Assembly: GCF_038051995.1 (NCBI RefSeq)
Contig: NZ_CP150290.1
Coordinates: forward strand, 3,400,001 to 3,464,000
Direction: 5' to 3'
Source: Paenibacillus sp. FSL H8-0537
GTDB lineage: Bacteria; Bacillota; Bacilli; Paenibacillales; Paenibacillaceae
Length of the DNA stretch: 64,000 bases
Position numbers and translations under genes: made by a program. The notes under the pieces are model-generated. The model made no database searches. It was not told the origin of the DNA and saw nothing but the letters and a program-made list of their open reading frames with translations. Of this stretch, positions 1,665-30,081 are shown one piece after another; positions within the stretch are counted from its first letter, which is position 1, and each line of letters begins with the position of its first letter.

Positions 1665-1799
1665 GGACGAGGTGGGCACAGGAACGCCAATTCGTGCAGT
1701 TTATTATGGAGAACTTACGTAAAAACATAGCAATAATTGCGGTACTTCCTGCTTGAAATCATCAGTAAAAGGAAGCATGCCCTTATCATTTTCGTGAGA

Positions 1800-1830
1800 T
1801 TTTAAAATAAATCGTGCATCACCCTCATAT
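1800..1830 (+). promoter_or_regulatory. Copy 1 of a 31-bp conserved upstream element
   Basis: The block TTTTAAAAT, three bases, TCGTGCATC, three bases, CTC, one base, TAT matches the copy at 8933 at 25 of 31 positions without gaps. A TATAAT -10 hexamer follows at 1842-1847, 12 bases downstream, so the element sits roughly where an activator site next to a -35 region would. It precedes the module 1 binding-protein gene. The proposed ligand, the regulator at 7161, is inference. Confidence 0.6.
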
Positions 1831-1899
1831 GAACTTCCATTTATAATTGTTACTATAACAGTGTAGAAAGACAATACGGATTGAATTAGGAGGGTTAAG

Positions 1900-3222
1900 A
1901 TGTTGAAATGGAAGCGTTCTCTTACAGTCTTAGCGATGACGGCTTTGCTGGGAACGGCGGCGGCATGCGGCGGAGTGAATAACAATGCAGAATCCACTGC
2001 AGAACCTGCTGGTACTAATGCTGCGTCAACGGCTGCACCTAGCAATGAACCTGTTAAGCTGCGTATTATGTGGTGGGGGTCCCAGCCACGCCATGAGGCG
2101 ACCTTGGCTGCGCTGGAATTGTACACAAAGAACAATCCTAATGTTACGTTTGAGCCGGAATACTCAGGCATGGATGGATATCTGGATAAATTATCGACAC
2201 AGGCTGCCGCTAATAACGCACCGGATGTCGTTCAGCTTGATCCAGGCTGGATGCCGGACTGGATGTCGCGCAACCAATTGGTTGAGCTGGCTCCTGAGGT
2301 TGATATAAGCAAATTCGACGAGAAATTGCTGGCAGGAGGTCAACTTGACGGTAAGCAATACGCTGTTCCATTGGGTTCAGTTGCATTTGGTATGGTGTAT
2401 GACAAGGCTGCAATGGATAAACTCGGTATTGCAAATCCGGTCAATGGCTGGTCATGGGATGATTTCTTCACCTTGGCCAAAGAATCCAAGTCTAAGCTGC
2501 CAAGCGGACAATATTTCACCTTGGATTATGCAGGTAACTACTTTATGTATTCAGCCTACCAATATGCTAAAGGTAAAGGCCAGGTTATCACTAAAGATGG
2601 GCATTTCAATGCAGATCAAGCAACCTATTTGGAATGGACCAAGAAATTTGAAGAGCTGCGCAAGGAGGGACTGGTTCCTCCAGCTGACGTAAACGCATCC
2701 GACAAGGAAAACGATCCGCAAATGGACTTGATGGCCGCGGGTAAGGTTTTGTTCCGGTACAGCTTTTCCAATAATTTAGGCACTTGGGACAGTATTAAAC
2801 CAGGAGCTTATGCACTTGTAACTATGCCGCGTGCAGAAGAAGCAGGCGGATGGCTGAAGCCATCGATGTATCTGTCTGTCTCCAAAAATTCCAAGCATGC
2901 TGAAGAAGCCAAAAAATTCATTAATTGGTTTGTGAATGATCAGGAAGCAGCTAACATTTTGCAGACATTCCGCGGCCTGCCAGCTAACAAGGAAATAGCG
3001 ACCTCTCTGGAAGCAAGCATGAGTGATCTGGATAAGGTTGGTTTAGGTCTCCTCCGTGCTACAGAGCCGGATGGTCAAACCTGGTCGGCTGGAGCAGGCG
3101 GCTGGACAAACTTTATCGATAAAGACTGGGTGCTTGTCAGAGATCAGCTCAGTTTTGAAAAAGTTACGCCTGAGAAAGCCTATGAGCAGCTGAAAGAAGC
3201 CGCGCAATCTTACGAAAAATAA
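1900..3222 (+). CDS. Sugar ABC transporter substrate-binding lipoprotein (module 1)
   Basis: This 440-residue family 1 extracellular solute-binding protein is anchored outside the membrane. It has a basic N-terminus, a hydrophobic stretch and a lipobox ending at Cys23 (LLGTAAAC), then an Asn/Ala/Thr-rich linker. The mature part has the MalE-like opening LRIMWWGSQPRHEATLAALELY and ends in a family-typical KAYEQLKEAAQSYEK segment. The start ATG has AGGAGG 5-10 bases upstream. It belongs with the two permeases at 3403 and 4362; no ATPase is encoded nearby, so a shared MsmX-type ATPase is assumed. Neighbouring xylanases suggest a xylo-oligosaccharide ligand, which is inference. Confidence 0.93.
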   Translation: MLKWKRSLTVLAMTALLGTAAACGGVNNNAESTAEPAGTNAASTAAPSNEPVKLRIMWWGSQPRHEATLAALELYTKNNPNVTFEPEYSGMDGYLDKLSTQAAANNAPDVVQLDPGWMPDWMSRNQLVELAPEVDISKFDEKLLAGGQLDGKQYAVPLGSVAFGMVYDKAAMDKLGIANPVNGWSWDDFFTLAKESKSKLPSGQYFTLDYAGNYFMYSAYQYAKGKGQVITKDGHFNADQATYLEWTKKFEELRKEGLVPPADVNASDKENDPQMDLMAAGKVLFRYSFSNNLGTWDSIKPGAYALVTMPRAEEAGGWLKPSMYLSVSKNSKHAEEAKKFINWFVNDQEAANILQTFRGLPANKEIATSLEASMSDLDKVGLGLLRATEPDGQTWSAGAGGWTNFIDKDWVLVRDQLSFEKVTPEKAYEQLKEAAQSYEK

Positions 3223-3232
3223 TGCAAGAACG

Positions 3233-3262
3233 AAGGCCCGGGGCAGTCTTGCTTCGGGCCTT
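3233..3262 (+). terminator. Hairpin between binding-protein and permease genes
   Basis: AAGGCCCG (3233-3240) pairs with CGGGCCTT (3255-3262) across a 14-base loop just after the binding-protein stop. The following bases are AT-rich but not a clean U tract. It may partly terminate or protect the upstream message so that binding protein exceeds permease. Confidence 0.6.
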
Positions 3263-3309
3263 GCATTTATTTCGGTAAGGAAGTTTAGTTCTTCTTTTTT
3301 ATCGTTATA

Positions 3310-3340
3310 TTTTGAAAGAATTCGAGCATTCCCCTCCTTT
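3310..3340 (+). promoter_or_regulatory. Copy 2 (diverged) of the 31-bp conserved upstream element
   Basis: TTTTGAAAG, AATTCGAGCAT and CCCCTCCTTT align without gaps to the copies at 1800 and 8933, with 22 of 31 identities to the copy at 8933. It ends 62 bases before the first permease start. This suggests the permease-sensor genes have their own regulated promoter besides read-through from the binding-protein gene. Confidence 0.45.
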
Positions 3341-3402
3341 AGCGGGACATATACGGCCTATATACTTAAACTATAAAAATTAAGCACAAGAGGTGACCAC
3401 AG

Positions 3403-4365
3403 ATGAACCGTTCTACAGCCACTATAGCCCAAACTGCTGCGAAAACGAAAAAAAACTCATACTTCAAAAGCAGATGGAACGCTCCGCTAGCAGGATATTT
3501 GTTTATTTCCCCCTGGCTGATCGGGTTTCTAGCGCTTACGGCGTACCCGTTATTCTTATCTCTGTACTATTCATTTACCGATTACACGTTGATGCAGCCG
3601 ATGAAGTGGATCGGGACCCGCAATTATGAGCGTATCTTTACAGCAGATCCCAAATTCATCCAATCCGCTAAGGTAACCTTTACTTATGTGCTGGCGTCCG
3701 TGCCTTTGAAGCTAATAGCCGCTCTCTTTGTAGCTATGATCCTAAGTAAGGCCGTAAAAGGTATCAGCATCTACCGCACAGCGATTTATTTCCCATCACT
3801 CATTGGAGGAAGTATCGGGGTATCACTGCTCTGGCGCAATATTTTTGGTGTAGACGGGGTCTTTAACAAACTGATTGCTGTCTTTGGTTTTGAAGGAAAG
3901 GGCTGGATTACCAATCCCGATACGGCGCTTGGCACGCTGATTCTGCTGACAGTCTGGCAGTTCGGATCTACCATGGTTATTTTTCTGGCAGGACTCAAGC
4001 AAATTCCGAATGATCTGTACGAGGCTTCTTCTGTAGATGGGGCAAGCAAAGTATCCCAATTCTTTAAAATCACGCTGCCGATGCTTTCACCGATTATTTA
4101 TTTCAACCTGATCATGGCAGTCATTGGCGCTTTCCAAATGTTCACCTCCGCATTCGTGATCACGAACGGCGGGCCGATGAATGCCACTTATGTATATGCG
4201 ATGTACTTGTATGAGAGGGCATTCAGCCGCTACGAGCTGGGATATGCTTCGGCACTTGCCTGGATAATGCTATTGGCCATTATTGCAGCTACCGTCCTGA
4301 TTTCCCACACCTCGAAGTATTGGGTATTCTATGAAACAGACACTGGAGGGAGAAAACGCAAATGA
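3403..4365 (+). CDS. Sugar ABC transporter permease, MalF type (module 1)
   Basis: This 320-residue membrane protein has about six transmembrane segments. The first is near residues 25-55 (LAGYLFISPWLIGFLAL). The cytoplasmic EAA loop reads EASSVDGASKVSQFFKITLP, the coupling site for the ATPase. AGAGGTG upstream of the ATG at 3403 serves as ribosome site. It overlaps the next permease gene by four bases (ATGA), so the two are translationally coupled and form one channel with the lipoprotein at 1900. Assignment to the carbohydrate uptake 1 class is firm; the transported sugar is inferred from context. Confidence 0.93.
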   Translation: MNRSTATIAQTAAKTKKNSYFKSRWNAPLAGYLFISPWLIGFLALTAYPLFLSLYYSFTDYTLMQPMKWIGTRNYERIFTADPKFIQSAKVTFTYVLASVPLKLIAALFVAMILSKAVKGISIYRTAIYFPSLIGGSIGVSLLWRNIFGVDGVFNKLIAVFGFEGKGWITNPDTALGTLILLTVWQFGSTMVIFLAGLKQIPNDLYEASSVDGASKVSQFFKITLPMLSPIIYFNLIMAVIGAFQMFTSAFVITNGGPMNATYVYAMYLYERAFSRYELGYASALAWIMLLAIIAATVLISHTSKYWVFYETDTGGRKRK

Positions 4366-5210
4366 CAACAACACTAAAATGGAAGTCGGCGCTTCGTCAT
4401 CTGTTCATGATTCTCTTCAGCTTCGTTATGGTTTATCCGGTTATCTGGTGGATCGGTGCTTCACTGAAACACAGCACAGAGCTTACCTCGCCGTCCATTT
4501 TCCCTGCTGCTGCGCAATGGAGCAACTTCACTAAAGGCTGGAACGCGGTTCCCGGACATACGTTTACCGATTTCTATCTTAATACCTTTGGACTTGAACT
4601 TGCTGTAATTGTCACAACATTGTTATCCTGTACACTGGTTGCCTTCGGTTTTGCTAGATTGGATTTTCCGTTGAAAAACTTTTGGTTCTCCATCCTCATG
4701 CTGACATTAATGATGCCTGGACAAGTGCTGATCATTCCTCAATATACCCTGTTTTATCAGCTGGGTTGGGTGAATACGTATCTCCCGTTCATCATTCCCC
4801 ATCTGCTGGCTGGAGGGGCAGGCGGCAGCTTCTTCGTCTTCCTGCTGATCCAATTTATACGCGGTGTTCCCAGAGAACTAGATGAATCTGCCAAAATTGA
4901 CGGGTGCTCCTGGTTCGGAATCTTCTGGAGAGTGGTCATGCCTCTTGCTTTTCCGGCAATTGTTACCGTGACCATCTTCTGCTTCCTGTGGAATTGGGAC
5001 GATTTCCTGGGTCATCTCCTGTATATCAACACAGTAGACAAATATACGGTCGGCCTGGCGCTTCGAATGATCAATGATTCTCAGTCTGCTCAGGAGTGGG
5101 GTCAGCTGCTTGCCATGTCACTAGTGTCTATTCTTCCGGCAACCATCCTCTTTATGTTTCTCCAGAAGTATTTTGTGGAAGGGATTGCAACGACTGGAAT
5201 TAAAGGATAA
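4362..5210 (+). CDS. Sugar ABC transporter permease, MalG type (module 1)
   Basis: This 282-residue partner permease has six predicted transmembrane segments. It opens with the MalG-like sequence MILFSFVMVYPVIWWIGASLK. The EAA loop is DESAKIDGCSWFGIFWRVVMPLAFP, and the C-terminus FLQKYFVEGIATTGIKG is typical of the class. Its ATG lies in the stop of the preceding permease gene. It would pair with that permease and the binding protein at 1900. A 16-bp inverted repeat follows the gene. Confidence 0.93.
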   Translation: MTTTLKWKSALRHLFMILFSFVMVYPVIWWIGASLKHSTELTSPSIFPAAAQWSNFTKGWNAVPGHTFTDFYLNTFGLELAVIVTTLLSCTLVAFGFARLDFPLKNFWFSILMLTLMMPGQVLIIPQYTLFYQLGWVNTYLPFIIPHLLAGGAGGSFFVFLLIQFIRGVPRELDESAKIDGCSWFGIFWRVVMPLAFPAIVTVTIFCFLWNWDDFLGHLLYINTVDKYTVGLALRMINDSQSAQEWGQLLAMSLVSILPATILFMFLQKYFVEGIATTGIKG

Positions 5211-5229
5211 GATGTAAAAAAACATCTCT

Positions 5230-5278
5230 CAATAAACGGTAAAGCGTCGAATGCCCTTCGCTGCTTTACCGTTTATTG
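5230..5278 (+). terminator. Strong hairpin after the module 1 permease genes
   Basis: CAATAAACGGTAAAGC (5230-5245) pairs perfectly with GCTTTACCGTTTATTG (5263-5278) around a 17-base loop. No U tract follows on the plus strand, so it may act as an attenuator or mRNA-stabilising stem between transporter and sensor genes. Confidence 0.6.
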
Positions 5279-5311
5279 TGTCTGAACCGGACTTGAAGGG
5301 AGGTCAAGCAT

Positions 5312-7048
5312 TTGCTCAATCCTTTTAAAAAATATAGAATTGACCGTCTGTTTTTTCATAGCTTTGCCATTGTGCTTATTGCAGTAATCGGTGTTACCGC
5401 ATGGACAAGCTACAGCAATTCTTCCAAGGCGCTCGTACAGACCACCTCCCACTACCAGCAACAGCTTCTTGATGAATTGAATAATGAAATTAACACCAAG
5501 CTGGTCATGATCGAACAGATATCACTGTCCAGTTCCCGCGATAGCGAGCTGACCAATTATCTTCTGAACAGACAAGACGAATTTGAGAGATACCGCAGAC
5601 GTGCTGAAGTGGAAAGCGCTCTTGCAAATTTGACTTATGCTATTCCTCTAATCCAAGGAATTGACCTGTATATGGATAATCCAATCCAAAGTGAACGGCA
5701 AAACTATATTCAATTCCGAAATTTTATGGATTTGGATACTAAGGGAAGAGCCGAATGTTTGGCGAAGAACGATTATTGCTGGTCCAAAGAGTATAGGTTC
5801 CCCAGTACGCAGGGCGAGATTCCTGTACTTAGCTTTTACAGAAAAATAGTCTTTGAGAATGACTATTTGGGAGTTCTAGTCGTTCACATCAAAGCCAACG
5901 AAATACGAAAACTGTTAACAGGCAATTCGGATGGATCAAACAGGATCATGGCGGATAGCGAAGGTCAGCAAATTATGAAAATAGGTGATGCGCTGGACCA
6001 GAACGATTGGTCTAGGTGGATTGATGTGAAAAGTAATAAATCCGGTTATGTCCATATTCCGGCAAAAGATGGCTCACATGATACACTGCTCGTCTACTCC
6101 AGAATGGATAATTCCATCTGGACGCTTATTGAATTTACATCCTGGAAACAAATCACGGCAAGCAGCCTGAAGCTGGCAGAATGGATCGGCTTGATCGGTA
6201 TTGCAGCAGTCTTGCTGGTCGTGCTCCTGACCCACTTTTTAAGCAGGCAGTTTACGAAGCCTATCAAAAGGCTTGTAACTGCGATGCGAGTGTACTCCGT
6301 AGGAGGCGACAATGTAGAACTTCCGATGGATTATGAGAATGAATTCGGTTATTTATTCTCTGGTTACCGAAAGCAGAACGAGAGGATTGAAGAACTGTAT
6401 CTCTCTTTGGAGCGCCGTTACGAACAGCAGCGGAAAGCCGAAATTGAGGCACTTCAGGCCAATATTAATCCGCATTTCCTTTATAATATGCTGGATCAAC
6501 TGAACTGGATGGCGATTGAGGCAAGGCAGGATGAACTTAGCCGTATTTTGGAGCTGATGGGTCGTATGTTTCGGATCGGTCTATCCAACGGGAACAGTTT
6601 TATCCCAATAGCTGATGAACTGCTGCATATAAATTGTTATTTGGAAATCCAGCAGCTGCGCTGGGGAGAAGGACTTGAATACAGGATTGAGGCTTCCTCC
6701 GAGCTTCAGACGTTATATATTCCAAAGCTTACACTGCAGCCGTTCGTGGAGAATTCTATCGTTCATGGCTTCAACAAACAGAGAAGCGGCCATGTGTCAA
6801 TCGTAATGGAGATAATTGCTAATACTGTGCACATTGTCATTGATGATAACGGTTCGGGACTAAAGCAGTCTGAAGACAGGCCGCATAACCGTCATACAGG
6901 AGGCTATGGTATACGCAATGTGAGAGAGAGGATTGCCGGATATTTCGGTGTGAGTTATGGAATTGTTCTGGGAGAACGTGAAGAAGGCGGAACAAGAGTG
7001 GAAATCACGCTACCGTTGCTGACAGAGCCACCAAGCAAAAATGACTGA
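5312..7048 (+). CDS. Sensor histidine kinase, YesM type (module 1)
   Basis: This 578-residue membrane sensor has an N-terminal transmembrane helix (about 12-34), an extracytoplasmic sensing region of about 250 residues, a second transmembrane helix near 295-315 and a HAMP segment. The His_kinase domain NINPHFLYNML has phospho-acceptor His388, and the ATPase domain has DDNGSGL and GGYGIRNVRERI. It starts at TTG 5312 with GAAGGGAGGT upstream. With the regulator at 7161 it forms a two-component pair sitting between the transporter and the giant xylanase. The stimulus is probably a xylan fragment, which is inference. Confidence 0.92.
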   Translation: MLNPFKKYRIDRLFFHSFAIVLIAVIGVTAWTSYSNSSKALVQTTSHYQQQLLDELNNEINTKLVMIEQISLSSSRDSELTNYLLNRQDEFERYRRRAEVESALANLTYAIPLIQGIDLYMDNPIQSERQNYIQFRNFMDLDTKGRAECLAKNDYCWSKEYRFPSTQGEIPVLSFYRKIVFENDYLGVLVVHIKANEIRKLLTGNSDGSNRIMADSEGQQIMKIGDALDQNDWSRWIDVKSNKSGYVHIPAKDGSHDTLLVYSRMDNSIWTLIEFTSWKQITASSLKLAEWIGLIGIAAVLLVVLLTHFLSRQFTKPIKRLVTAMRVYSVGGDNVELPMDYENEFGYLFSGYRKQNERIEELYLSLERRYEQQRKAEIEALQANINPHFLYNMLDQLNWMAIEARQDELSRILELMGRMFRIGLSNGNSFIPIADELLHINCYLEIQQLRWGEGLEYRIEASSELQTLYIPKLTLQPFVENSIVHGFNKQRSGHVSIVMEIIANTVHIVIDDNGSGLKQSEDRPHNRHTGGYGIRNVRERIAGYFGVSYGIVLGEREEGGTRVEITLPLLTEPPSKND

Positions 7049-7114
7049 TCCCCGATATGATTAAAGTAAGCGCTTCCTTAGAGGGAGTGAGCGACGGGCG
7101 TGCTTTCGTACTTA

Positions 7115-7154
7115 AGGAGTTTAGGAGTTTAGGAGTTTAGGCGTTTAGGAGGTA
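7115..7154 (+). repeat. Five tandem 8-bp units containing a Shine-Dalgarno-like core
   Basis: The units read AAGGAGTT, TAGGAGTT, TAGGAGTT, TAGGCGTT and TAGGAGGT, with no gaps. They end six bases before the ATG at 7161. The last unit carries AGGAGGT, the working ribosome site; three others carry AGGAG. Copy-number change here would move or multiply potential ribosome docking sites. Confidence 0.9.
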
Positions 7155-7160
7155 AGCGTA

Positions 7161-8780
7161 ATGTGGAAAATCGCAATCATCGATGATGAGCGGCAAGTCC
7201 TTAATGGAATGAAACGGGCGATTCCCTGGGATGAACTGGGAGCAGAGTGGGCTGGAGAGGCTATGAACGGAGAGGACGGCCTGGAGGTAATCCGCCGTAC
7301 CCTACCGGACATTGTAATCACTGATCTTTATATGCCCGTGATGAGTGGGCTGGATATGATGGAGCAGCTGAGGAAGGAAGGATTTAAAGGCAAAATCATT
7401 ATTCTCAGCGGTTATTCGGATTTTGAGCATGCGAGACAAGCTTTAAGGTTTCAAGTGACCGAATATGTATCCAAGCCAATCAGTCTGCCAACGTTAAAAT
7501 CCATTTTGAGCAATGTCGTACAGGAACTGGAGGAGGAGGAGGAGAGGCGAAATAGGCAATGGGAGCTTGAGTTTAAAATGACGCTGTATGAGCCTTTTGT
7601 TGAAAAGGAGTGGGTCCGCTCCGCAGCTGTAGGTACCCTTGACCATGCATATAGAGACAGCACGCGTCTTCCTCCGTCTTATCTTTTTTGGCAGGAATGC
7701 AAGCATGTCACAGTTGGCATCGAGCTGATTCGGGATGAACGAGCCGGATGTCTATCCGTCTCCGATTGGAACCTGTTCCGGTTTGCAGTCAGTAATATTG
7801 CTTGTGAAGTAGCCCGTAAGCTGTTCCCTGATCTGGAATATGCAGAGCTGCACAGTACCCGAGCATTACTGATTATTCACCCGGATGCAGGAAATCTCGA
7901 ACAGTTAGAAAACAAGCTGAAAGAGCTGGGGATCAGGCTGATTGACAGTATTGGCAGTTATCTAAAGCTGATTACACGTATAGGAATCGGGGGAGTGAAG
8001 GATTCATGGACCAACCTCTCAGACTCAACAGAGGAAGCTTTCCGTGCGATGGATCAAAGGGCATTGCGTGCCGCCTCCTCACATGAAGTGTATAGATACC
8101 AGGAGAACAGCAGCAGCGAACCGGGTAATGTCGCCCTCTTTCCGGTCAAATTCTCGTATAAGCTGGCAACAGCAATGAAGGCATCGCAGGAAGTGGAAGC
8201 CCATCAGCTTGTACTGGAATATATAATGGAAATGAAAAATCAAGAGGGGATCTCGCAGGGATACGTACAAATGCTTGGGAGCGAGCTGTGGGGAATTATA
8301 ACCTACTCGCTGTATGAATCCGGCTTGGTACTGGATGACCTGTTCACCAATGACCAGATTGCCAAGGAAATCAATAGCCTGATCGTACCGGACCAGCTGG
8401 CAAGCTGGCTGATGGACAAAATCACCAAGATCTGCAGCAGCAGACAATGGAAAGGAAGCAGCAAGCACCGGCAGGTTGTCGAATTCATGACCAGTTACAT
8501 TCATGAGCACTATGCCGAAGAGCTGACACTCGCCGAGCTGTCGGATAAGGTATACATTTCACGGAACCACTTGTCTATTATTTTTAAAAATATGACCGGA
8601 GAAACCTTTAACAATTACCTGACCCGAGTTCGGATCGAGAAGGCGCGCGAGCTGCTTATGGAGCGGAATATGCTGGTGTATGAAGTGGCGGAGCGGGTCG
8701 GTTATAAGAACATTCCCTACTTCAGCACACTGTTCAAAAAAATAACCGGTATGAATCCTACAGAACTCATAAAAAACTAA
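7161..8780 (+). CDS. Response regulator with AraC-type DNA-binding domain, YesN type (module 1)
   Basis: This 539-residue cytoplasmic regulator has an N-terminal receiver (1-125) with IIDDE acidic residues near 7-9, phospho-acceptor Asp55 (IVITDLYMP) and conserved Lys near 104 (YVSKPIS). A long linker domain of about 300 residues follows. Two AraC-type helix-turn-helix motifs lie at the C-terminus (LTLAELSDKVYISRNHLSII and VYEVAERVGYKNIPYFSTLF). It is the partner of the sensor at 5312. The three 31-bp elements at 1800, 3310 and 8933 are its most likely targets, by proximity only. An unusual repeat sits in its ribosome-site region. Confidence 0.93.
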   Translation: MWKIAIIDDERQVLNGMKRAIPWDELGAEWAGEAMNGEDGLEVIRRTLPDIVITDLYMPVMSGLDMMEQLRKEGFKGKIIILSGYSDFEHARQALRFQVTEYVSKPISLPTLKSILSNVVQELEEEEERRNRQWELEFKMTLYEPFVEKEWVRSAAVGTLDHAYRDSTRLPPSYLFWQECKHVTVGIELIRDERAGCLSVSDWNLFRFAVSNIACEVARKLFPDLEYAELHSTRALLIIHPDAGNLEQLENKLKELGIRLIDSIGSYLKLITRIGIGGVKDSWTNLSDSTEEAFRAMDQRALRAASSHEVYRYQENSSSEPGNVALFPVKFSYKLATAMKASQEVEAHQLVLEYIMEMKNQEGISQGYVQMLGSELWGIITYSLYESGLVLDDLFTNDQIAKEINSLIVPDQLASWLMDKITKICSSRQWKGSSKHRQVVEFMTSYIHEHYAEELTLAELSDKVYISRNHLSIIFKNMTGETFNNYLTRVRIEKARELLMERNMLVYEVAERVGYKNIPYFSTLFKKITGMNPTELIKN

Positions 8781-8827
8781 TAATTGAACTTCCCAAAGCT
8801 AAGCTCTTTTATGGAGAGATTGGAGTG

Positions 8828-8859
8828 AAAAGCCCACTCTCTCTATAACTGGGCTTTTT
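8828..8859 (+). terminator. Rho-independent terminator after the module 1 regulator
   Basis: AAAAGCCCA (8828-8836) pairs with TGGGCTTTTT (8850-8859), ending in a run of five T. It closes the module 1 transcript before the xylanase promoter region. Confidence 0.85.
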
Positions 8860-8932
8860 GCTGTTTGCGAGAGTAAATTCGGCAATAATCAGAAATTTTC
8901 TTTTCGTAAAAAAACAAATCATTATAGTGTTA

Positions 8933-8963
8933 TTTTAAAATGATTCGTGCATCGTTCTCCTAT
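8933..8963 (+). promoter_or_regulatory. Copy 3 of the 31-bp conserved upstream element
   Basis: TTTTAAAAT and TCGTGCATC are identical and identically spaced to copy 1 at 1800. This copy lies 199 bases before the giant xylanase ATG at 9162 and upstream of the cre-like site at 9006. The stretch 8781-9161 otherwise holds only the terminator at 8828 and the 11-bp repeat at 9013. Confidence 0.6.
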
Positions 8964-9005
8964 AAATTTCAATTTTGAATTGGTAAGCTATAACCAAGCA
9001 AAAAA

Positions 9006-9019
9006 TGTAAGCGCATACA
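9006..9019 (+). promoter_or_regulatory. Candidate catabolite-responsive element (cre) before the xylanase gene
   Basis: TGTAAGCGCATACA matches the CcpA consensus TGNAANCGNTNNCA at all fixed positions but one. It lies between copy 3 of the 31-bp element and the start codon, a position where CcpA could block transcription when better sugars are present. Match by eye; function inferred. Confidence 0.5.
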
Positions 9020-9161: not shown

Positions 9162-12100
9162 ATGATTAAAAAAATTCGGAGAAAGACACTTGCGGTTTCA
9201 ATAGCTGGCGCGCTTCTGCTGTCTGTTATGACTCCAGTGCCATTTTCCACCCCAATTCAGGCAGCTCCGACAGTTGCAGCTCCGGCACAGGTAACCGCCG
9301 ATTGGTACAAGACCTATCAGACAATGGATGGGGTAGGTGCCGCTTATGCGTACACGGATTCCATTCATATGATGCAGTTGGCTACGGCTGGTCATCAAGA
9401 CACCGTCAGGCATCTGCTGGATCTGACCTTCAGTGAACAAGAAGGCACGGGCCACGACATTGTTCGGGTCATCATTGGTGATAATGGAGGCCTTGCCACT
9501 ACAGGCGCCACAGCAGCCAGCCCAGGGTTCAATCCTCTAACAGGTTTGCTTGCAGATGTCAGCAACCCTGGTTTCGATGTTGAAGGAAATGCCATTCCCA
9601 TGAGGGGATCAGCGGGTCAGTATGGTTATAAAATAGAAGCTGAAAACCGCTATGCAGACGGCAATACCGACAGTATCTGGCCTGTTGAACCTGAACACGC
9701 TCCAGGCACGCTGGTACCGGTGCAAGATTTCGTCTGGGATTATCCGTCATGGAATCAGCCAATTGGCAATGACGATGGAGGACCAACCAATCTCCTTAGC
9801 GCACCGGGGGAAAATCCTGTTGTAATTAAAAACTCGCCGCGTACCCGTAAAGAGCTGTTCGATTTCGATCAGGTCTGGACGATGCGTCAGGCGATGCAGT
9901 ATGGCGTCAAGCAATTCTATGCTTGTACGTGGACCGTACCTTACTGGATGAGCCAATCTTCGACCAATTCACCGAGCAAAATTGTACGTGGCGACACAGC
10001 TACCATAAACGGTAAACCGGTAAAAATTTACTATCAGGCCTACGCAGATTATCTCGTTCAGTATATCCGGGGAATGTGGGAGCAATGGGGGATTCCGATC
10101 ACTCACATCAATCCCTTCAACGAGGTTGATCTTGCAGGCGGAACAGCTTCATATGTAACAGAGCTAATTAATGGGTATATCGGTCCTACCTTGAAAAAAT
10201 CGATGCAGCCAGGCGGGGCCCTTTATGATATCCAAAACCCAGACGGAAAGCTCATTGACTTTATTCCGCAGCTTGCCGCTGTGGACGGTACCAATCTCAG
10301 CGCCTCACTAAGCAGAGGCGGCGAAGTGTTCTCTCAAACCGACCCTGATAATGCATTGGACAAAAATCCGTATCTCGACTTATTTACCACCCATTTGTAT
10401 GGTACGGTCGGCATAGGGACGGATGAGAACAAACTGTATCATACAGGTGACTTTTCCCAGAGTCCTCTGGATTATTCAAAGGATGGAAGCAAGTATCCCG
10501 AATACCTGACCAAGTATAAACTGTGGCAGGCAGAGTTTATGAATCAGGATACCGCTGACGGATCAGCCGGTGCATATACGCAGCGGTACGGCAATCAGAA
10601 TATCAATGACGCTGTGCGCTGGTCTAATTTGATGACCAATATGTTCAGCAGCAACCCCGGCTTTAACGGCTTCGTCTGGTGGAGCATGTGGGATAGTAAC
10701 GGAGCGGACGGTTCTGACCTGATTCGCTTCGTCACTACCAACTCTCAACAGGAGCCGGGACGTATCAGTACGTTAACTGGTGAATATCGTATATTCAAGC
10801 GTTTCTACGGCTACGGGCATTTCTCCCGGTTTATGAATCCCGGCGATGTTCGTTTTGATGTTACACGTGTTCCCGCAGCCGATATGAATGTTATTGGGTT
10901 CAAGAACCAAAATACCAATGATTACTCGATCACGGTTTCCAATGCCAAAAATGATGACAGCATTCAGCCGCTTGAATTCAGCCTGAAGGATTTCCCGACA
11001 GGCACTACAAGTGTAACCGTGTTCCGTACTTCAGGAAGCGAAAATCAGAAGAAGCTGGGAACGATTCCGGTAACGAATGGCAAGTTCGTCATCGACATCC
11101 CGTCCGCCAGCATTGTTACTATCGTTCCGTCTCAGGGTACTTTTGCCACCTATAAGGGCCTTGACGGCGAACGCGACATTTTCTCCACTCTTGAGGCGGA
11201 GGGAAATGATAACGGCATACCTGGCGACAGCGCCGGAAATGCCGGCCGCGCAGGCGAGGCGGTGTCACTCGGTGCCGGTGAATACCTGGCCTATAAAAAC
11301 CTGAACTTCGCAGATGGCTCCGCCAACGGCGGTGTTGTCCGCAGACACTTGTTATATTTGACCGCTCAGACGAAGTCGGCTCAAGGAGGGAGGCTTACCG
11401 CTTATGTTATTCCGGTAGGAACCGCTGTGAGCAGCAGTGCTGATGTCCAGTCCAACGGTACGCGAGTAGCGGAAATTTCGGTTCCAGCCAATGAAACATA
11501 CGGTAAATTTCAGTCGATGGTCAATACAGGCGATCTTAGCGCCTATGGCCATAAGGATCTGTATATGATTGCCGAACCGAACGGATCTAATGGTGCGATT
11601 ATCGTTGACCGCTTCCTGTTCGGAGCCAATGATTCCGACTGGAGTCTTGCCGCTAATAACTCGGTGGCATCCATACCAGGGAACCTACTGCAAAATGGAG
11701 ATTTTGATACAGCAACGTCCTCCAATACAAATAATTGGACCACAGGACGTTACAATAATGGAAGCTTTGAAATGGTTGTGAATGGACCTGCGTTAACTGC
11801 GGATACCATTCAGAGCTACTCGGGCCTTTCCCGATATCTGAAAAACAACGCTACCTCGAAGGTTGCCGGAGCTGGGAAGATGTCGGGCCGCATTGATTCC
11901 GCGCAGCAATATGACGGCATGTGGCAGGATGTTACCGGAAAGCTGAACAAGGGAGAGAGCTATAACTTTAAGGGCTATTTCCTCTCTATGATGAGTCGGC
12001 CTGAGAGCTATGATGTCGCAGCGGAAAATCCGGGTGACGTGGAAGTTGCACTTGTGTATTACGACAAGAACGGTAATCAGCTGGGCATGAACGGGGTTAA

Positions 12101-15100
12101 TGAGCGCGATATGCCTGAGCCTTACGCAGCCCGTGAGGCTGGTGATCCTGCTTATTGGAGCAACGGCAAGTTTATCGGGCGCATACTTGAAGGCGGGCCG
12201 CTCACCCTAAGCTCTTTCCAGCCCGTTGACGTGAAGGTTGCAGACTGGCATGAGACGCCTAACCAGCCGTTTACTTATGATGAACCGGCAGGTACTGCGA
12301 AGGTGGTAATAGCGGTGTATGCAAAGGATGCCAACATCCTGTATGCGGATCAGCTGTCGCTGACTCCTGAGCTTGTAGCTTCATACAGTATTTTTATTGA
12401 CGGCGTTCAGCCAGCTAATTTTGATGCTACCAGACATGATTACGCCTATACGGTATCTGGCAGCACCATACCGAAAGTAACGGCAGTTTCTAACGATCCT
12501 GCTGAACTCATTAGCATTTCGCAGGCGGACAGCACACAAGGTACCGCAGTTGTCCGTTTTATCAAAGGCGAAAATGTTAAGTCGTATAAAATTTCCTTCA
12601 GTACGAACGAAATTATTGATTTTACCAATGGCCTTCCAGTAGATTGGGAAGTCATGAATCCGGTTGAGCCGCAAAATGCATTAAGCTATAGCGCTGAGGG
12701 TGCGACGATCAAGACGTTGAAGGGCGATACGGATTATCCCAACAGCCATAATATGCTGCAGTTTCCGGGTTCAGCTGAAGGCAGCTGGACGCTGACGGCG
12801 AAGCTTGCCGTAGATAAGCCGCTTAATGATTCTGCAATGGGTGAAAATTCCCAAGTGGGGCTTGGCATCAGCCGAGCATCTAGCGGTGAGTTTTACAGAA
12901 TAAATGCGCGAAAAGTAAGCACGAATATCAAAGTTAATAATTCAGGCAAAACAGGCAGTACCGCATTTACCAACAATACCAATCAGACCAATTTGAGCGG
13001 TACAAACTACTTTCTCCGAATTGTTAAGGAAGGAAATACGGTTCAAGGGTATTTTTCGACGAATAGCGGCACAACTTGGACGCCTATGGGCAGTTCGTCA
13101 ACTTATGCCCCAGATTTCTTCAAGGATGCAAAAGTTCAATTGTATGGAACCAATGTCAGTGCCTCGACCGATTTCAAGGTTACCTTCTCGAGCGTGACAT
13201 TGGTTAAGACATTAGATGAATCCGGAGGACGGGGTGAGGATCAACTCGCTGTAGAAGAAGCAGCCGCGCTAATCGGTAACCGGATAACGGTTCCGAATGC
13301 AGCTGGTGATGACGCAGCTGCGCTGAAGACCAAAGCACAAGAATACCTTAATAACAATGAAGAGCTGAAGGCGCTTGGAGTGACCACAGCACTTTCCTAC
13401 CAGAATGGTGGCTTTACGCTAATCATAACGAAAGGTAGCGCAAGCGTATCGATTGGCCTGCTTACCATTGTGGCCGGTGTGAAATCCACAAGGGATTTTG
13501 AGGATCAAACGGTACAAGGCTTCAAGCCAAAGGGCAGTGCTGGCGTGACGCTTACGGCTACCAACGAAGCCAACCATACTCAGGGAGGAGCTTATTCCCT
13601 CAAAGTAACCGGCAGAACCGCCAATTCGGACGGCCCGTCCGTTAATTTGAAGGACGCTGTCAAGATTGGCAATGAGTACAAAGCTACTGTATGGGTTAAG
13701 CTGATTGACCCGGCAAGCGCTCAGCTTAAGCTGACAGCACTGGTCAATGCCCCAACGCCTTATTACATCAGTCTTTCAACCCAGAACGTCAGTAAAAACG
13801 GAGAGTGGGTCAAGCTGGAAGGCACCTACCGTTATCTGCACAATGATGTCACTCTATATGTAGAAAGCCCTAACAGTGCTGCAGCATCGTATTATATTGA
13901 TGACTTTAGCTTCGAAGATACAGCGCTGCAGAATATTGTACCTCTTAAAGATGTCTATAAGAGTGACTTCCTGCTTGGAAATGTACCGGGCAATAATGAA
14001 ATTACCCCGGGCAACGGGCAGAATGCCTTCTTTAACTATCATTTTAATAGTGTAACCTTTGGCAATGAGATGAAGCCGGATGCGCTGCAGAAGAACAAGG
14101 GTACCTTTACATTTACGAGGTCTGATGAAATGACAGCAAAGTCTCAGGCTATGGGAATGAAAGTACACGGACATGTACTGGTATGGCACAGTCAGAGCCC
14201 GGCATGGTTTACACAGCAAGTGGACGCAGCGGGCAATGCATTGAAGGATCAGGCAGGCAACCCAATCTATCTCAGCCGCGATGAGGCGCTCGCGAATATG
14301 AGAACCCACATCCAAACTGTAATGGAACACTTTGGGGATAAGGTAATCTCGTGGGATGTCGTCAATGAAGCCATGCAGGATGGGCCACCAGCTGTTGCTG
14401 ACTGGAAGGATGCGCTCCGGCAGTCCCCCTGGTACTACTCCGTAGGTCCTGACTTTGTGGAGCAAGCATTTATTGCGGCAAGGGAAGTGCTGGTTAAACA
14501 CCCAGAATGGAACGATATCAAGCTGTATTACAATGATTTCAATGACGAGTTTCCGGAGAAGCGGGACGCCATCTACGACATGGTTAAAGAAATCAATGAC
14601 CGTTACGCGCTGACTCATCCCGGAGAAATGCTGGTTGACGGAATCGGACTGCAGTCACATTACGATATGAGAACGAAGCCTGCCAATGTGGAAGCAGCAA
14701 TTGTCAAATACGCTTCCCTTGGTGTTGAAATCTCCATAAGCGAACTTGATGTTCTCGCTGGAATGAATTCCTCCCTTTCTGCAGAGTGGGCGGAGAAGCA
14801 AGCTAATTTGTATGCCCAATTGTTCCAGATCTATAAGAAGCATGCCGATAAGATTGCGCGTGTCACCATCTGGGGATATACAGACAGCTCCAGCTGGAGA
14901 GCCAGCCAGAATCCTCTGCCTTTCGTTGGTTCTCTGGCACCGAAGCCGGCTTATTATGCCATTATCAATCCGGAGAAATATCTGGCCGAGCATCCGCTCT
15001 ATATCACACCTGAAACCAAGAGCTCTACTGCGCTGTATGGTACGCCGGATATCAATGGAACCATTGATGACATCTGGAAGGATGCGCCTGAGATTCAAAT

Positions 15101-17159
15101 CGATAACCAACTGATGATATCGTCCGGAGCATCCGGAACAGCGAAAACGCTGTGGGACGATGAAAACCTGTATGTGCTGTTTCAGGTGAAGGATACGCAG
15201 CTGAGCAAAGACAACGCAGATAAGACAAAGCAGGACTCAGTCGAAGCCTATGTGGACGAGGACCGCATCAATGCATGGCCATACCGCGAAGATGACGGAC
15301 AATACCGGGTCAATTTTGCCGGCGAGCAGTCCTTCAAGTTCCTCAGTAATTCGACACCGGCGGTTTCTCCCGGATTTGAATCGGCGGCATTAACAGCCGG
15401 AACGGAATATACGGTGGAAATGAAGATTCCGTTCAAAACCATCACCCCGGTAAACGGGACACAAATCCGGTTTGATGCACAAGTAAACAATGCAACGGGA
15501 GCGAATCTGGTCGGCGTGGCAACCTGGAATGATCTGCTTGGCAGAGCGACAAAGTCGACAGAGGTGTTCGGCAGCCTAACCCTTATCGGCAAAGGAGATC
15601 AGGCTCCGCCGACTTGGGCAGGTGGCAGCAAGCTGGAAGCTAATGATGTAACTAGCACCGGAGTCACCTTGTCGTGGCCAGCGGCTGCGGATAACCTAGG
15701 AGTCATCGGTTACCGGATCTACAACGGTATCGATGAGGTACCAGTTACCGTAGCTGGCGGCAAATCCATTGAAACGGTAACGGTAGATGTATATCATCAG
15801 CTGTTGTCCGGATTGATGCCAAATACACAGTATACCTTCAAGGTGGAAGCAGGAGATGCTGCCGGCAACTGGAGCACAGACGGACCTTCCGTTTCGGTAA
15901 CTACACTGCCGACGTCAGACACCACGCCACCGGTTTGGGCAGAAGGAAGTATGCTCGCGGCCTCCAATGTCACGAGTAAGGGACTGACCTTGACGTGGTC
16001 GGCGACGGCTGCGGATGATAGCGGTATTGCTGGTTACCGGATCACGAATGGAGTTGATAACAAGTCCGTTACGGTTACGGATGCCGTGTATACGGAGACT
16101 GTAACCGGGTCTGTATACAGTCATCAAGTAACGGGATTAAAACCGAATACGCAATATACGTTTAAGATAGAGGCCGGGGATACAGGCGGGAATTGGAGTA
16201 CGGGCGGACCATCTGTTTCAGCAACCACACTGCCGGCTTCAGACACTACCCCTCCGTCATGGTCGGAGGGAAGCAAGCTCGAAGCCTCTCAAATAACGGC
16301 TTCCGGACTCACCTTGACATGGACGGGGTCTACAGATAATACAGCAGTCACGGCTTACAAGATTTACAGCGGACAGGAGGAGATTGCGACGCTGCCTGGA
16401 ACGGTGCATAGGTACGAGGTGTCCGGACTTGCGGCGGGCACAGGGTATGCGTTCTCGGTGCAGGCAGGTGATGCGGCAGGAAACTGGAGTATGGACGGTC
16501 CAAACACCCGTGTAACCACGCTCAGCAACAGCGGGGGGCCAGCGGTTCCGACACCAGCAGCAACACCGACACCTACGCCAACAGCAACACCTACGCCGAC
16601 ACCGGTGCCAGCAAGTGATTTTAAAGATCTGGGCAGCAAATACAGCTGGGCTTCTGAGGCGATTGATGCGCTGTATGCAAAGGGTATTATTAAAGGAACC
16701 TCCGAAACGACCTTTAGTCCGGAGAAAAACATTACGAGAGCCGACTTTGTGCTGCTGCTGGTGCGTGCTCTTGGCCTCGATGCAGAAGCCGATACCCATT
16801 TCGCAGATGTAAGTCAAGGAGCATACTACTATGAAGCCCTCAGTATTGCTAAGAAATTGGAGATTATCCAGGGAATGGACGGCAATAACTTCAATCCGAA
16901 GGGAGAAATCTCGAGGCAGGATATGATGGTTATGGCAGCCAGAGCGTTGAAGGCAGTGAATAGGCTAACCGCCAGTGACAGCGCCGGAGACTTAAGCGGC
17001 TATACAGATGGAACGAAGGTTGCCAAATACGCCATCGATAGTATAGCAGCCCTGGTCAAGGAAGGGATTATCCACGGAGATGGAAAATCCCTTCATCCAA
17101 CCGGAACAGCTACACGAGCGGAAGCGGCAGTAATTATCTACAGAATTTACGGAGAGTAA
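9162..17159 (+). CDS. Giant secreted bifunctional xylanase: GH30 + GH10 with CBMs, FN3 repeats and SLH anchor
   Basis: 2665 residues; the ATG at 9162 follows AAAGGAGG. In order: signal peptide (about 1-38); GH30-like catalytic module (about 45-655) with putative acid/base Glu321 in NPFNEVD and nucleophile Glu458 in WQAEFM; CBM6-like module (about 660-825); CBM4/9-type module (840-1068); cadherin-like domain (1070-1148); laminin-G/concanavalin-like domain (1150-1350); small unknown domain (1355-1440); CBM22 (1445-1590); GH10 xylanase (1590-1937) with acid/base Glu1736 (DVVNEA) and nucleophile Glu1861 (ISELDV); CBM9 (1950-2145); three fibronectin III repeats (2148-2455); a Pro/Thr linker; three SLH motifs (2486-2665). 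It should sit on the cell surface and cut xylan by two mechanisms, since GH30 xylanases often require a glucuronate side chain (family knowledge). Domain borders are approximate. Confidence 0.93.
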   Translation: MIKKIRRKTLAVSIAGALLLSVMTPVPFSTPIQAAPTVAAPAQVTADWYKTYQTMDGVGAAYAYTDSIHMMQLATAGHQDTVRHLLDLTFSEQEGTGHDIVRVIIGDNGGLATTGATAASPGFNPLTGLLADVSNPGFDVEGNAIPMRGSAGQYGYKIEAENRYADGNTDSIWPVEPEHAPGTLVPVQDFVWDYPSWNQPIGNDDGGPTNLLSAPGENPVVIKNSPRTRKELFDFDQVWTMRQAMQYGVKQFYACTWTVPYWMSQSSTNSPSKIVRGDTATINGKPVKIYYQAYADYLVQYIRGMWEQWGIPITHINPFNEVDLAGGTASYVTELINGYIGPTLKKSMQPGGALYDIQNPDGKLIDFIPQLAAVDGTNLSASLSRGGEVFSQTDPDNALDKNPYLDLFTTHLYGTVGIGTDENKLYHTGDFSQSPLDYSKDGSKYPEYLTKYKLWQAEFMNQDTADGSAGAYTQRYGNQNINDAVRWSNLMTNMFSSNPGFNGFVWWSMWDSNGADGSDLIRFVTTNSQQEPGRISTLTGEYRIFKRFYGYGHFSRFMNPGDVRFDVTRVPAADMNVIGFKNQNTNDYSITVSNAKNDDSIQPLEFSLKDFPTGTTSVTVFRTSGSENQKKLGTIPVTNGKFVIDIPSASIVTIVPSQGTFATYKGLDGERDIFSTLEAEGNDNGIPGDSAGNAGRAGEAVSLGAGEYLAYKNLNFADGSANGGVVRRHLLYLTAQTKSAQGGRLTAYVIPVGTAVSSSADVQSNGTRVAEISVPANETYGKFQSMVNTGDLSAYGHKDLYMIAEPNGSNGAIIVDRFLFGANDSDWSLAANNSVASIPGNLLQNGDFDTATSSNTNNWTTGRYNNGSFEMVVNGPALTADTIQSYSGLSRYLKNNATSKVAGAGKMSGRIDSAQQYDGMWQDVTGKLNKGESYNFKGYFLSMMSRPESYDVAAENPGDVEVALVYYDKNGNQLGMNGVNERDMPEPYAAREAGDPAYWSNGKFIGRILEGGPLTLSSFQPVDVKVADWHETPNQPFTYDEPAGTAKVVIAVYAKDANILYADQLSLTPELVASYSIFIDGVQPANFDATRHDYAYTVSGSTIPKVTAVSNDPAELISISQADSTQGTAVVRFIKGENVKSYKISFSTNEIIDFTNGLPVDWEVMNPVEPQNALSYSAEGATIKTLKGDTDYPNSHNMLQFPGSAEGSWTLTAKLAVDKPLNDSAMGENSQVGLGISRASSGEFYRINARKVSTNIKVNNSGKTGSTAFTNNTNQTNLSGTNYFLRIVKEGNTVQGYFSTNSGTTWTPMGSSSTYAPDFFKDAKVQLYGTNVSASTDFKVTFSSVTLVKTLDESGGRGEDQLAVEEAAALIGNRITVPNAAGDDAAALKTKAQEYLNNNEELKALGVTTALSYQNGGFTLIITKGSASVSIGLLTIVAGVKSTRDFEDQTVQGFKPKGSAGVTLTATNEANHTQGGAYSLKVTGRTANSDGPSVNLKDAVKIGNEYKATVWVKLIDPASAQLKLTALVNAPTPYYISLSTQNVSKNGEWVKLEGTYRYLHNDVTLYVESPNSAAASYYIDDFSFEDTALQNIVPLKDVYKSDFLLGNVPGNNEITPGNGQNAFFNYHFNSVTFGNEMKPDALQKNKGTFTFTRSDEMTAKSQAMGMKVHGHVLVWHSQSPAWFTQQVDAAGNALKDQAGNPIYLSRDEALANMRTHIQTVMEHFGDKVISWDVVNEAMQDGPPAVADWKDALRQSPWYYSVGPDFVEQAFIAAREVLVKHPEWNDIKLYYNDFNDEFPEKRDAIYDMVKEINDRYALTHPGEMLVDGIGLQSHYDMRTKPANVEAAIVKYASLGVEISISELDVLAGMNSSLSAEWAEKQANLYAQLFQIYKKHADKIARVTIWGYTDSSSWRASQNPLPFVGSLAPKPAYYAIINPEKYLAEHPLYITPETKSSTALYGTPDINGTIDDIWKDAPEIQIDNQLMISSGASGTAKTLWDDENLYVLFQVKDTQLSKDNADKTKQDSVEAYVDEDRINAWPYREDDGQYRVNFAGEQSFKFLSNSTPAVSPGFESAALTAGTEYTVEMKIPFKTITPVNGTQIRFDAQVNNATGANLVGVATWNDLLGRATKSTEVFGSLTLIGKGDQAPPTWAGGSKLEANDVTSTGVTLSWPAAADNLGVIGYRIYNGIDEVPVTVAGGKSIETVTVDVYHQLLSGLMPNTQYTFKVEAGDAAGNWSTDGPSVSVTTLPTSDTTPPVWAEGSMLAASNVTSKGLTLTWSATAADDSGIAGYRITNGVDNKSVTVTDAVYTETVTGSVYSHQVTGLKPNTQYTFKIEAGDTGGNWSTGGPSVSATTLPASDTTPPSWSEGSKLEASQITASGLTLTWTGSTDNTAVTAYKIYSGQEEIATLPGTVHRYEVSGLAAGTGYAFSVQAGDAAGNWSMDGPNTRVTTLSNSGGPAVPTPAATPTPTPTATPTPTPVPASDFKDLGSKYSWASEAIDALYAKGIIKGTSETTFSPEKNITRADFVLLLVRALGLDAEADTHFADVSQGAYYYEALSIAKKLEIIQGMDGNNFNPKGEISRQDMMVMAARALKAVNRLTASDSAGDLSGYTDGTKVAKYAIDSIAALVKEGIIHGDGKSLHPTGTATRAEAAVIIYRIYGE

Positions 17160-28250: not shown

Positions 28251-29957
28251 CTAATTAATTTGAACCAACTGCCATTGCTGATTCAGATCGCCTCGGTATA
28301 AATTTTGTTGGATCTTCGCACCATTTGCCGTGGAGGATGCCAGCACTTCAACTGCTTTGTTGCTATTCACATTAAGCATGCTCCAGTATCCGTTACTCAG
28401 CTTGATCAATCGAAACTGTTGTGCTGTATTAGAGAGATCCTGCATAAGCTGAATCGCTTCCCCGTTGTTTTTCGTTCCGTTACGAACATCCATGACTTTA
28501 TTGTCAGATGAGCTCACGCTCCGCAACTTGTAATAGTTGTTATAGGTTCCTTGATTCGTAACGACCCAGCGCTGCGCCGCCGTATTATTGTCCGTCGACT
28601 GTTGAAGCTGCAGGGCGTTCGTATTTTGCCCGCCCGGCACCTCGAGTGTTTTGCCCGATGCACGGTTCACAAGCTTGTACGTGGCACCATTCGTCACTCC
28701 ATTCCAAACACCATTCCAAGGATTGAACTGGGCGCGTTCATAATACCATTCAAAAATAAAACGGGCCATCCCATCGCGGGCTGTATTGCCATCATACAGC
28801 AAGCCAGCTGTCGGGTCTGCGAACGAGCTTCTTGTGCCGGAATTCAGCAAAAACCCGTTCATATGGACGGCAATGCTCACATTGCCTGCTGCTGTGAAGA
28901 TCGCTTTCGTGTTTTTGCCGAATCCCTCGTTTGAACCGTTAAACAGCTCCCAATAGGAGGAGTCTCCGGGTTGTTTCTTAAACCAGGTGGTTTCCGTAAT
29001 ATTGATTGGATAATTATCAGCGCAAGGCTTAATATTGGTATCCCACTGCTGCTGTAAAGGCGCATAATTGTCATTGGCGCCATAGCCTGGATACCAATGG
29101 ACCGAATAACCAACATTGTTCAGTGGATCCGTCAGTGGATACGCTGCGCATAATTGATAGTATTGATCCCAGCCGAGTCCCGCCGCCCAGACAACGTTAT
29201 CTGCGCCTTTACTGCGGATTGTAGAAATCATCGAGTTTTGGAAATTTTTGAGCGAGTTCCAGTGAGCAACGAAATTGGACTGGGAAGGATTTCCGCCCCA
29301 AACACCGTTAACATCGGATAATACAGGCTCATTGATTAGCTCGAACATGACGTTATCCGCGCTCTTAATGCCGGGCTGGTCAGCTAGGTAGCCCCAGATC
29401 TGATTGAATTTAGCAAGGTTGTCGGGCGTTGTCGCTTGGTTGTTATTCAATGTGTAATCGAGACCGAGTGTTACATATAGGCCTTTGGTCTTAGCATAGT
29501 TGATATAAGGAATGATTACGTTCTGGGTGACGGCCTGCAAACCAGCAAAGTTATAGGTGCCCGCTGCAACGTCTCCCATGTCTTCCCGATCTATGAATAG
29601 ACGGACCTGATTCATATACCATCCATGGTTGTTGCCGTATTTGGCGGAAGTGCTCGTAAAGGTATCGGTAATATCCTTCAAATATTCCAGAATAGCAGCA
29701 TGCCGATTCCCGCCGTTCTGATTCAGATAGTAGTTGCTGTTCTGATAGGTCCAATAAGCACCGGAAGGCTGATGCCACCCGCTAAGCAATACGGGCTGAC
29801 CGTCAGTGTTTACCAACTGGTTACCATTAACATGGAGCTTGGACATTGGCATGCCAACCCAGGCTTCTGCCGGATTTCCGCTTAGCAGCATCGGTGATAT
29901 CAATAGTGCGAGAAGCAGCATAACCTTGACTCCTAAACTAACTTTCTTCTTACTCAT
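28251..29957 (-). CDS. Secreted GH5 glycoside hydrolase with C-terminal CBM13 (ricin-type) domain
   Basis: The protein has 568 residues. The signal peptide covers about 1-31 (VMLLLALLISPMLLSGNPAEA). The GH5 (beta/alpha)8 barrel has acid/base Glu210 in FELINEP and nucleophile Glu322 in ITETTWF. From about residue 430 follows a ricin-B-like CBM13 with three subrepeats; QRWVV, QQFRLI and QQWQLV are the QxW-type ends. The start at 29957 leaves AAGGGAG nine bases upstream; the ATG at 29966 abuts that site and is less likely. GH5 includes cellulases, mannanases and arabinoxylanases, so substrate is open, but the setting favours a hemicellulose. It diverges from the esterase at 30256. Confidence 0.88.
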   Translation of the reverse strand: MSKKKVSLGVKVMLLLALLISPMLLSGNPAEAWVGMPMSKLHVNGNQLVNTDGQPVLLSGWHQPSGAYWTYQNSNYYLNQNGGNRHAAILEYLKDITDTFTSTSAKYGNNHGWYMNQVRLFIDREDMGDVAAGTYNFAGLQAVTQNVIIPYINYAKTKGLYVTLGLDYTLNNNQATTPDNLAKFNQIWGYLADQPGIKSADNVMFELINEPVLSDVNGVWGGNPSQSNFVAHWNSLKNFQNSMISTIRSKGADNVVWAAGLGWDQYYQLCAAYPLTDPLNNVGYSVHWYPGYGANDNYAPLQQQWDTNIKPCADNYPINITETTWFKKQPGDSSYWELFNGSNEGFGKNTKAIFTAAGNVSIAVHMNGFLLNSGTRSSFADPTAGLLYDGNTARDGMARFIFEWYYERAQFNPWNGVWNGVTNGATYKLVNRASGKTLEVPGGQNTNALQLQQSTDNNTAAQRWVVTNQGTYNNYYKLRSVSSSDNKVMDVRNGTKNNGEAIQLMQDLSNTAQQFRLIKLSNGYWSMLNVNSNKAVEVLASSTANGAKIQQNLYRGDLNQQWQLVQIN

Positions 29958-30067
29958 TCGATACATCTCCCTTATTTTTTTGATTTATGTGAATCATGGT
30001 AGTAATTAGGTAGGGTGGAGCGGCCAATACCTTTCTCTTTGGTGGCGAGTTTTCCAATGGAACTAAA

Positions 30068-30081
30068 TGTATGCGCTTGCA
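30068..30081 (+). promoter_or_regulatory. Candidate cre site between divergent GH5 and esterase genes
   Basis: TGTATGCGCTTGCA differs from the CcpA consensus TGNAANCGNTNNCA at one fixed position. It sits 111 bases upstream of the GH5 start and 187 bases upstream of the esterase start, so one site could affect both. Confidence 0.45.

Follow-up and report, generated by a model that had tools for sequence, protein, structure and literature searches.

The locus and its genes

The window analysed here, 64,000 nucleotides (nt) of Paenibacillus sp. FSL H8-0537 at positions 3400001-3464000 of the host contig NZ_CP150290.1, contains a plus-strand gene cluster in which three promoter regions share a 31-bp element, predicted to be the operator of the YesN-type regulator encoded in the same cluster. 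The cluster begins with the sugar-binding protein of an ATP-binding cassette (ABC) importer (1900..3222, 440 amino acids (aa); PF01547, PF13416), whose nearest solved relative is YesO (5z6b), followed by the importer permeases 1 (3403..4365, 320 aa; PF00528) and 2 (4362..5210, 282 aa; PF00528), a YesM-type sensor histidine kinase (5312..7048, 578 aa; PF06580, PF02518), and a YesN-type response regulator with a receiver and an AraC-type DNA-binding domain (7161..8780, 539 aa; PF00072, PF12833, PF00165). The kinase and the regulator are referred to below by their start positions, as 5312 and 7161. Both domains of 7161 have solved relatives (6swf, 6swi and others), which are titled just two-component response regulator. 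The last gene, at 9162..17159, encodes a giant surface xylanase with glycoside hydrolase family 10 (GH10), carbohydrate-binding, fibronectin and S-layer homology (SLH) domains, and a sub-threshold GH30 match. Its longest frame starts at GTG 9093, and ATG 9162, behind AAAGGAGG, is the likelier start. Among the matches listed for eight proteins of the window (25 of 101 for the regulator), none to an NCBIfam model exceeded its cut-off.

Copies of the element in the window and the host genome

The copies of the element, at 1800-1830, 3310-3340 and 8933-8963, are ungapped and all lie on the plus strand, preceding the binding-protein gene, the permease genes and the xylanase gene, respectively. Their pairwise identities are 25/31 (1800 vs 8933), 23/31 (1800 vs 3310) and 22/31 (8933 vs 3310). 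The original prediction for this DNA had given the first of these figures, which recomputation reproduced, and a value of 22/31 for the diverged 3310 copy, which is that of its pairing with 8933. The 1800/8933 pair was extended by a repeat finder to 68 nt (1785-1852 vs 8918-8985, 52/68 identical). As a control, 1010 nt of intergenic DNA was resampled by a first-order Markov model, giving a best self-match of 23 over 31 nt (300 resamplings) and of 38 over 68 nt (100 runs). From 74 non-redundant sites in other genomes, with the window sites excluded, a profile of 43 columns was derived. It scores the window copies at 60.3, 57.6 and 48.9 bits, the next-best place in the window at -13.5 bits, and nothing in the window above 0.5 bits in any of 50 column-permuted versions.

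The scan was extended to the complete host genome (7,005,912 bases in one contig), where a pattern made from the three copies matches these three places and no others with up to 3 mismatches; the pattern fits its own copies by construction, and the informative part is the absence of further places, random genome-wide occurrence being the outcome that the original prediction had named as its refutation. The reversed pattern has no match. A wider 39-base pattern finds one extra place with 3 mismatches (361543, minus strand), its control again finding none. By eye, no clear copy of the element is present in the stretches before 17490 (a GH43 gene), 19322 (the start of a second YesN/YesM pair, 19322 and 20968, which follows the GH43 gene), 31499 and 38775. 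A chance origin of the copies was rejected on the resampling, whole-genome pattern and permuted-profile controls, and as far as the profile tells, the regulon in the host is three promoters.

The element in related loci

Conservation was studied in the best 80 of 207 related loci, 76 of them in genomes named Paenibacillus, which were divided into an orthologue set of 48 loci (regulator identity of at least 54%) and a paralogue set of 32 loci. The orthologue loci (1,012,005 bases) contain 97 matches of at least 22 bits to the profile of the three window copies, all of them on the gene strand, and 20 column-permuted profiles gave 0 such matches each. At a threshold of 15 bits there are 111 matches, 106 of them on the gene strand; the five on the opposite strand (15.6 to 17.2 bits) were not counted as elements. 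Every one of the 48 loci carries at least one gene-strand element of 15 bits or more.

Placement was assessed for genes identified by tblastn, with elements assigned when they lie within 260 nt upstream. An element precedes the binding-protein gene in 41/44 orthologue loci, the first permease gene in 42/46, the giant xylanase gene in 5/8 and the regulator gene in 14/48, and within the same distance none precedes the kinase gene (0/48), the second permease gene (0/46) or the GH67 gene (0/33). These gene positions explain 102 of the 106 elements, and the remaining four (in loci L038, L040, L042 and L090) lie 300, 511, 329 and 151 nt, respectively, before a giant-xylanase-like frame. The motif is not scattered through the host genome, and in relatives it recurs before the same genes. 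The scan that the original prediction had proposed as a check therefore favours it, in keeping with the claim that the copies stand upstream of genes that belong with 7161.

The presence of an element before the regulator gene in 14 loci suggests self-activation there. It is found in L036-L038, L040-L045, L063, L066 and L099 near locus positions 9790-9860, and in L060 and L065 near 9920. Kinase and regulator are present in all 48 loci, which were selected by their regulator. A GH67 gene lies within 33/48 loci, between the binding-protein and permease genes in 25 of these, and this suggests that the cargo of the importer and the signal of the kinase are aldouronates or xylo-oligosaccharides.

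Anatomy of the operator-promoter module

The 31-bp element is present as originally described, but proved to be merely the centre of a longer operator-promoter module. In alignments of non-redundant sites, conservation sets in with a TCG-type box some 12 nt upstream of the 31-mer, a -10 sequence follows the conserved block, and the flanks are almost unconserved. For this conservation display, as for the shift test described below and the 43-column profile, near-identical sites (85% or more) were removed, leaving 77 of 104 sites for the display and the shift test. The -10 position was counted in all 104 sites, where the best -10-like hexamer begins at module base 52 in 67, compared to a largest pile-up of 13 in 200 shuffles. 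In the window, the binding-protein module (1788..1856, plus strand) consists of TCGTG at 1792-1796, the 31-mer at 1800-1830 with TCGTG at 1812-1816, and a -10-like TACTAT at 1851-1856 after TGT. The permease module (3298..3366, plus strand), of the permease class, consists of TCGTT at 3302-3306, the 31-mer at 3310-3340 with TCGAG at 3322-3326, and a -10-like TATACT at 3361-3366. The xylanase module (8921..8989, plus strand) has TAGTG at 8925-8929 and TCGTG at 8945-8949 within the 31-mer at 8933-8963; its usual -10 place (8984-8989) holds a weak TAAGCT, next to a TATAAC at 8989.

Because the -10 sequence mostly begins at base 52, the end of the 31-mer falls on the -35 position, where the window modules have the hexamers TATGAA, TTTAGC and TATAAA; the window promoters are without a good -35. 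A site lying over the -35 position of a promoter that lacks a good -35 is the layout of an activator-dependent promoter. The box pairs of the window copies (TCGTG/TCGTG, TCGTT/TCGAG and TAGTG/TCGTG), spaced 20 bp apart, may represent tandem half-sites. The sites fall into two separately conserved classes, a binding-protein/xylanase type, TCGTGCATC, and a permease type, TCGAGCATT; the binding-protein, regulator and xylanase sites mostly contain TCGTGCAT or close variants, and the permease-class sites mostly TCGA followed by GCATT variants.

This anatomy bears on two explanations that dispense with a DNA-binding regulator. The copies could be strong promoters retained by descent or by recent duplication, since the -10 belongs to the module and the copies probably arose as paralogues. 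However, conservation is highest upstream of the -10, in a part that is neither a -35 nor a plain A+T tract and whose flanks are not conserved, and a constitutive promoter would not be restricted to these genes, making promoters that lack a specific regulator very improbable. An RNA leader element, riboswitch-like or attenuator, is suggested by the distance of 62 to 198 nt between the window copies and the start codons that follow them, but the -10 lies downstream of the block, which should therefore not be transcribed, and within the window none of the Rfam families attains its gathering score; on these two grounds the RNA leader was rejected as barely credible.

A cre match at the xylanase promoter

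The xylanase promoter contains a further candidate control site, a perfect match to the consensus of the catabolite-responsive element (cre) of CcpA, at 9006-9019 (plus strand), 73 nt downstream of where the 31-mer starts. The window contains 2 perfect cre matches, compared to 0.15 expected, with none at the binding-protein and permease sites. The orthologue loci contain 101 elements of at least 18 bits. A strict cre match accompanies 4 of them between -60 and +200, and all 4 belong to the 9 xylanase-type sites, at an offset of 74 in L023, L024 and L059, and of 95 in L090. We infer that CcpA may act at this promoter to shut down the exported xylanase. The second perfect match in the window (30068-30081, minus strand) lies upstream of a minus-strand lectin-domain gene (28251-29966).

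Unlinked copies and their xylanases

Some regulator-bearing genomes contain copies of the element on another contig or far from the regulator gene, and 27 such unlinked copies are among the matches listed. In 25/27, the next frame encodes a relative of GH10 xylanases, either an SLH-bearing protein of about 1340 aa or a protein related to the giant xylanase (84% identity over 1962 residues); two of these 25 frames are short (L178, 506 aa; L180, 389 aa). By comparison, in genomes without the regulator, 0/8 copies precede a xylanase gene (8 sites in 7 of 15 such genomes). The xylan regulon of the original prediction is thus supported by unlinked copies before other xylanases, but extends in the host genome to three promoters only. 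The unlinked copies are more telling as to the identity of the binder than the association across genomes, which linked inheritance inflates.

Probable assignment of the element to regulator 7161

The distribution of element and regulator was compared across 394 genomes of the family. The element is found in 90/394 (up to 2 mismatches) and a reversed control pattern in 4/394, and an orthologue of 7161 (E <= 1e-170) is encoded in 77/394. The element is present in 75/77 genomes with this regulator, as opposed to 15/317 without it. Among 398 genomes drawn evenly from the class, a 7161-type regulator (E <= 1e-120) occurs in 6, all in the window's own family. The second YesN regulator, 19322 (E <= 1e-150), was found in 29 genomes, of which 17 also have the element, and 73/90 element genomes lack this regulator; as a binder 19322 is disfavoured by this distribution, in which its threshold of 1e-150 stands against 1e-170 for 7161. 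The earlier assignment to 7161 therefore names the best candidate, whose presence tracks the element over the 394 genomes where that of 19322 does so much less, and 7161 is the most likely binder.

The competing possibility is a true operator of another regulator, either 19322 or an unlinked AraC-type activator, with 7161 merely co-inherited with the targets. The genomes listed each encode many YesN-like regulators (81 to 434 first-look candidates), and much of an association with 7161, whose binding is itself predicted, would arise from linked inheritance alone. Against another regulator stand the restriction of 19322 to just 17/90 element genomes and the presence of variants of the element in the paralogue loci (42-48% regulator identity), the pattern to be expected where every regulator recognises a variant of its own. 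An operator of this kind is accordingly regarded as unlikely, although less so than a plain promoter or an RNA leader.

Several observations weigh against the assignment to 7161. The pattern behind the counts in the 394 genomes was shaped on sites from relatives, and the association that it yields is inflated by shared descent and linked inheritance. Two regulator-bearing genomes (51-52% identity) are without the element. In the window, the genes of 7161 and 5312 have no element of their own, and of the seven GH10 matches and one GH67 match in the host genome, the six other GH10 genes and the sole GH67 gene have a best profile score of -17.4 or lower in the stretches around them. The column similarity at shift 20 has z = 1.4, below shifts 11 and 27, and the attempt to prove statistically that the half-sites form a 20-bp direct repeat consequently failed. 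Two unlinked copies, in L143 and L144, have no xylanase gene behind them, and are possibly decayed or extra members of the regulon. The copy at L143:1079-1109 resembles a binding-protein promoter that was copied and has no gene close by, and that at L144:5288-5318 precedes a gene for a Gfo/Idh-type oxidoreductase.

Proposed mechanism

With these points taken into account, the element is very probably an operator at which 7161, phosphorylated by 5312, activates a small xylan regulon, as predicted from the sequence comparisons described above. In this mechanism, 5312 would sense xylan fragments, either xylo-oligosaccharides or aldouronates, and, as expected from its family, phosphorylate 7161, which would then bind the conserved block, probably as two subunits. 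The downstream part of the bound block would occupy the -35 position, over which it is seen to lie, of promoters without a good -35, and 7161 would recruit RNA polymerase to the -10 at the preferred distance observed in the sites. Three separate promoters would thereby be activated, driving the binding protein, the two permeases and the surface xylanase; some relatives would have 7161 activate its own gene as well. At the xylanase promoter, where the cre match is located just past the -10, CcpA would block transcription when better sugars are present.

Variants of the element may extend beyond the orthologues of 7161. The 32 paralogue loci contain 14 matches of at least 18 bits, 12 of them before the first permease gene and 2 before the binding-protein gene, compared to a mean of 0.4 matches for permuted profiles. 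Since all 14 precede one of these two genes, related regulators seem to rely on versions of a common frame at corresponding promoters. A more general YesN operator code, which we consider evenly balanced between right and wrong, would have each importer-linked YesM/YesN pair read its own variant of one frame, consisting of a TTTTRAAA-type block, a GTGCAT-type centre and a CTC..TAT-type end, at a single distance from the -10, with the two site classes in a regulon setting graded outputs. If this code is true, many YesN paralogues would be assignable to their targets by sequence.

Other features of the locus

Three further features were observed beside the genes of the cluster. Between permease 2 and the kinase gene, at 5230-5278, lies an inverted repeat of 22 nt, with 91% complementarity and a loop of 5 nt, that resembles a terminator or processing hairpin and may lower the output of kinase and regulator relative to that of the permeases; similar words (AAACGGTAAAGC) occur near the kinase gene in several relatives. 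Directly upstream of the regulator start codon, at 7104-7151, are four tandem 8-bp units (TTTAGGAG-like) that hold several ribosome-binding-site-like words and are possibly a variable translation signal. The stretch at 890-1664 is gene debris, the minus strand of which resembles, by eye, the end of an AraC-type protein at about 900-1270; the sole translated frame of this debris is full of stops, and the frame at 1272-1664 matches no Pfam family.

Comparison with known systems

These genomes encode numerous YesM/YesN pairs, whose sites are, to judge by the literature searched, little defined; a published site for the regulator group of 7161 was not found in the open-licence literature. One such pair now gains a precise and conserved predicted operator, a preferred -10 spacing, two classes of promoter and xylanase targets at unlinked positions, in a switch that is directly testable with one protein and three short fragments.

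XydS/XydR of Clostridium cellulolyticum is likewise an AraC-type two-component regulator of hemicellulase genes, the effector domain of which was found to bind target regions in gel shifts, narrowed to about 250 bp; the paper lists shared repeats and states that no consensus site was identifiable for AraC/XylS activators (PMC3572039). In Caldicellulosiruptor bescii, predicted regulons of AraC-type two-component regulators have sites upstream of the promoters of importer genes, as here, consisting of tandem repeats with large spacers that were read as activator sites, although regulators and organism differ from those of the window (PMC8579813). The AraC-type regulator MsmR1 of P. polymyxa has its own motifs (PMC9722767).

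By arrangement, the cluster is likened to XynDC and XynEFG of Geobacillus stearothermophilus, in which a kinase and a regulator also lie beside the binding protein and two permeases of an importer for xylan fragments (PMC10269863, PMC4194401). The gene order differs, and the window set has separate element-bearing promoters and a giant surface xylanase. Paenibacillus sp. JDR-2, known by its published description, has its importer, regulators and GH67 in one aldouronate utilization cluster, which is reported to be coordinately regulated with a distant SLH-bearing GH10 xylanase, Xyn10A1 (PMC4765114). The part of this account covered here makes no mention of an operator, AraC, YesN or a binding site (PMC4765114). 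The link to a distant surface xylanase resembles the present regulon, and the element would offer a DNA basis for co-regulation of the JDR-2 type, in which an uptake cluster is controlled together with a surface xylanase encoded at a distance (PMC4765114).

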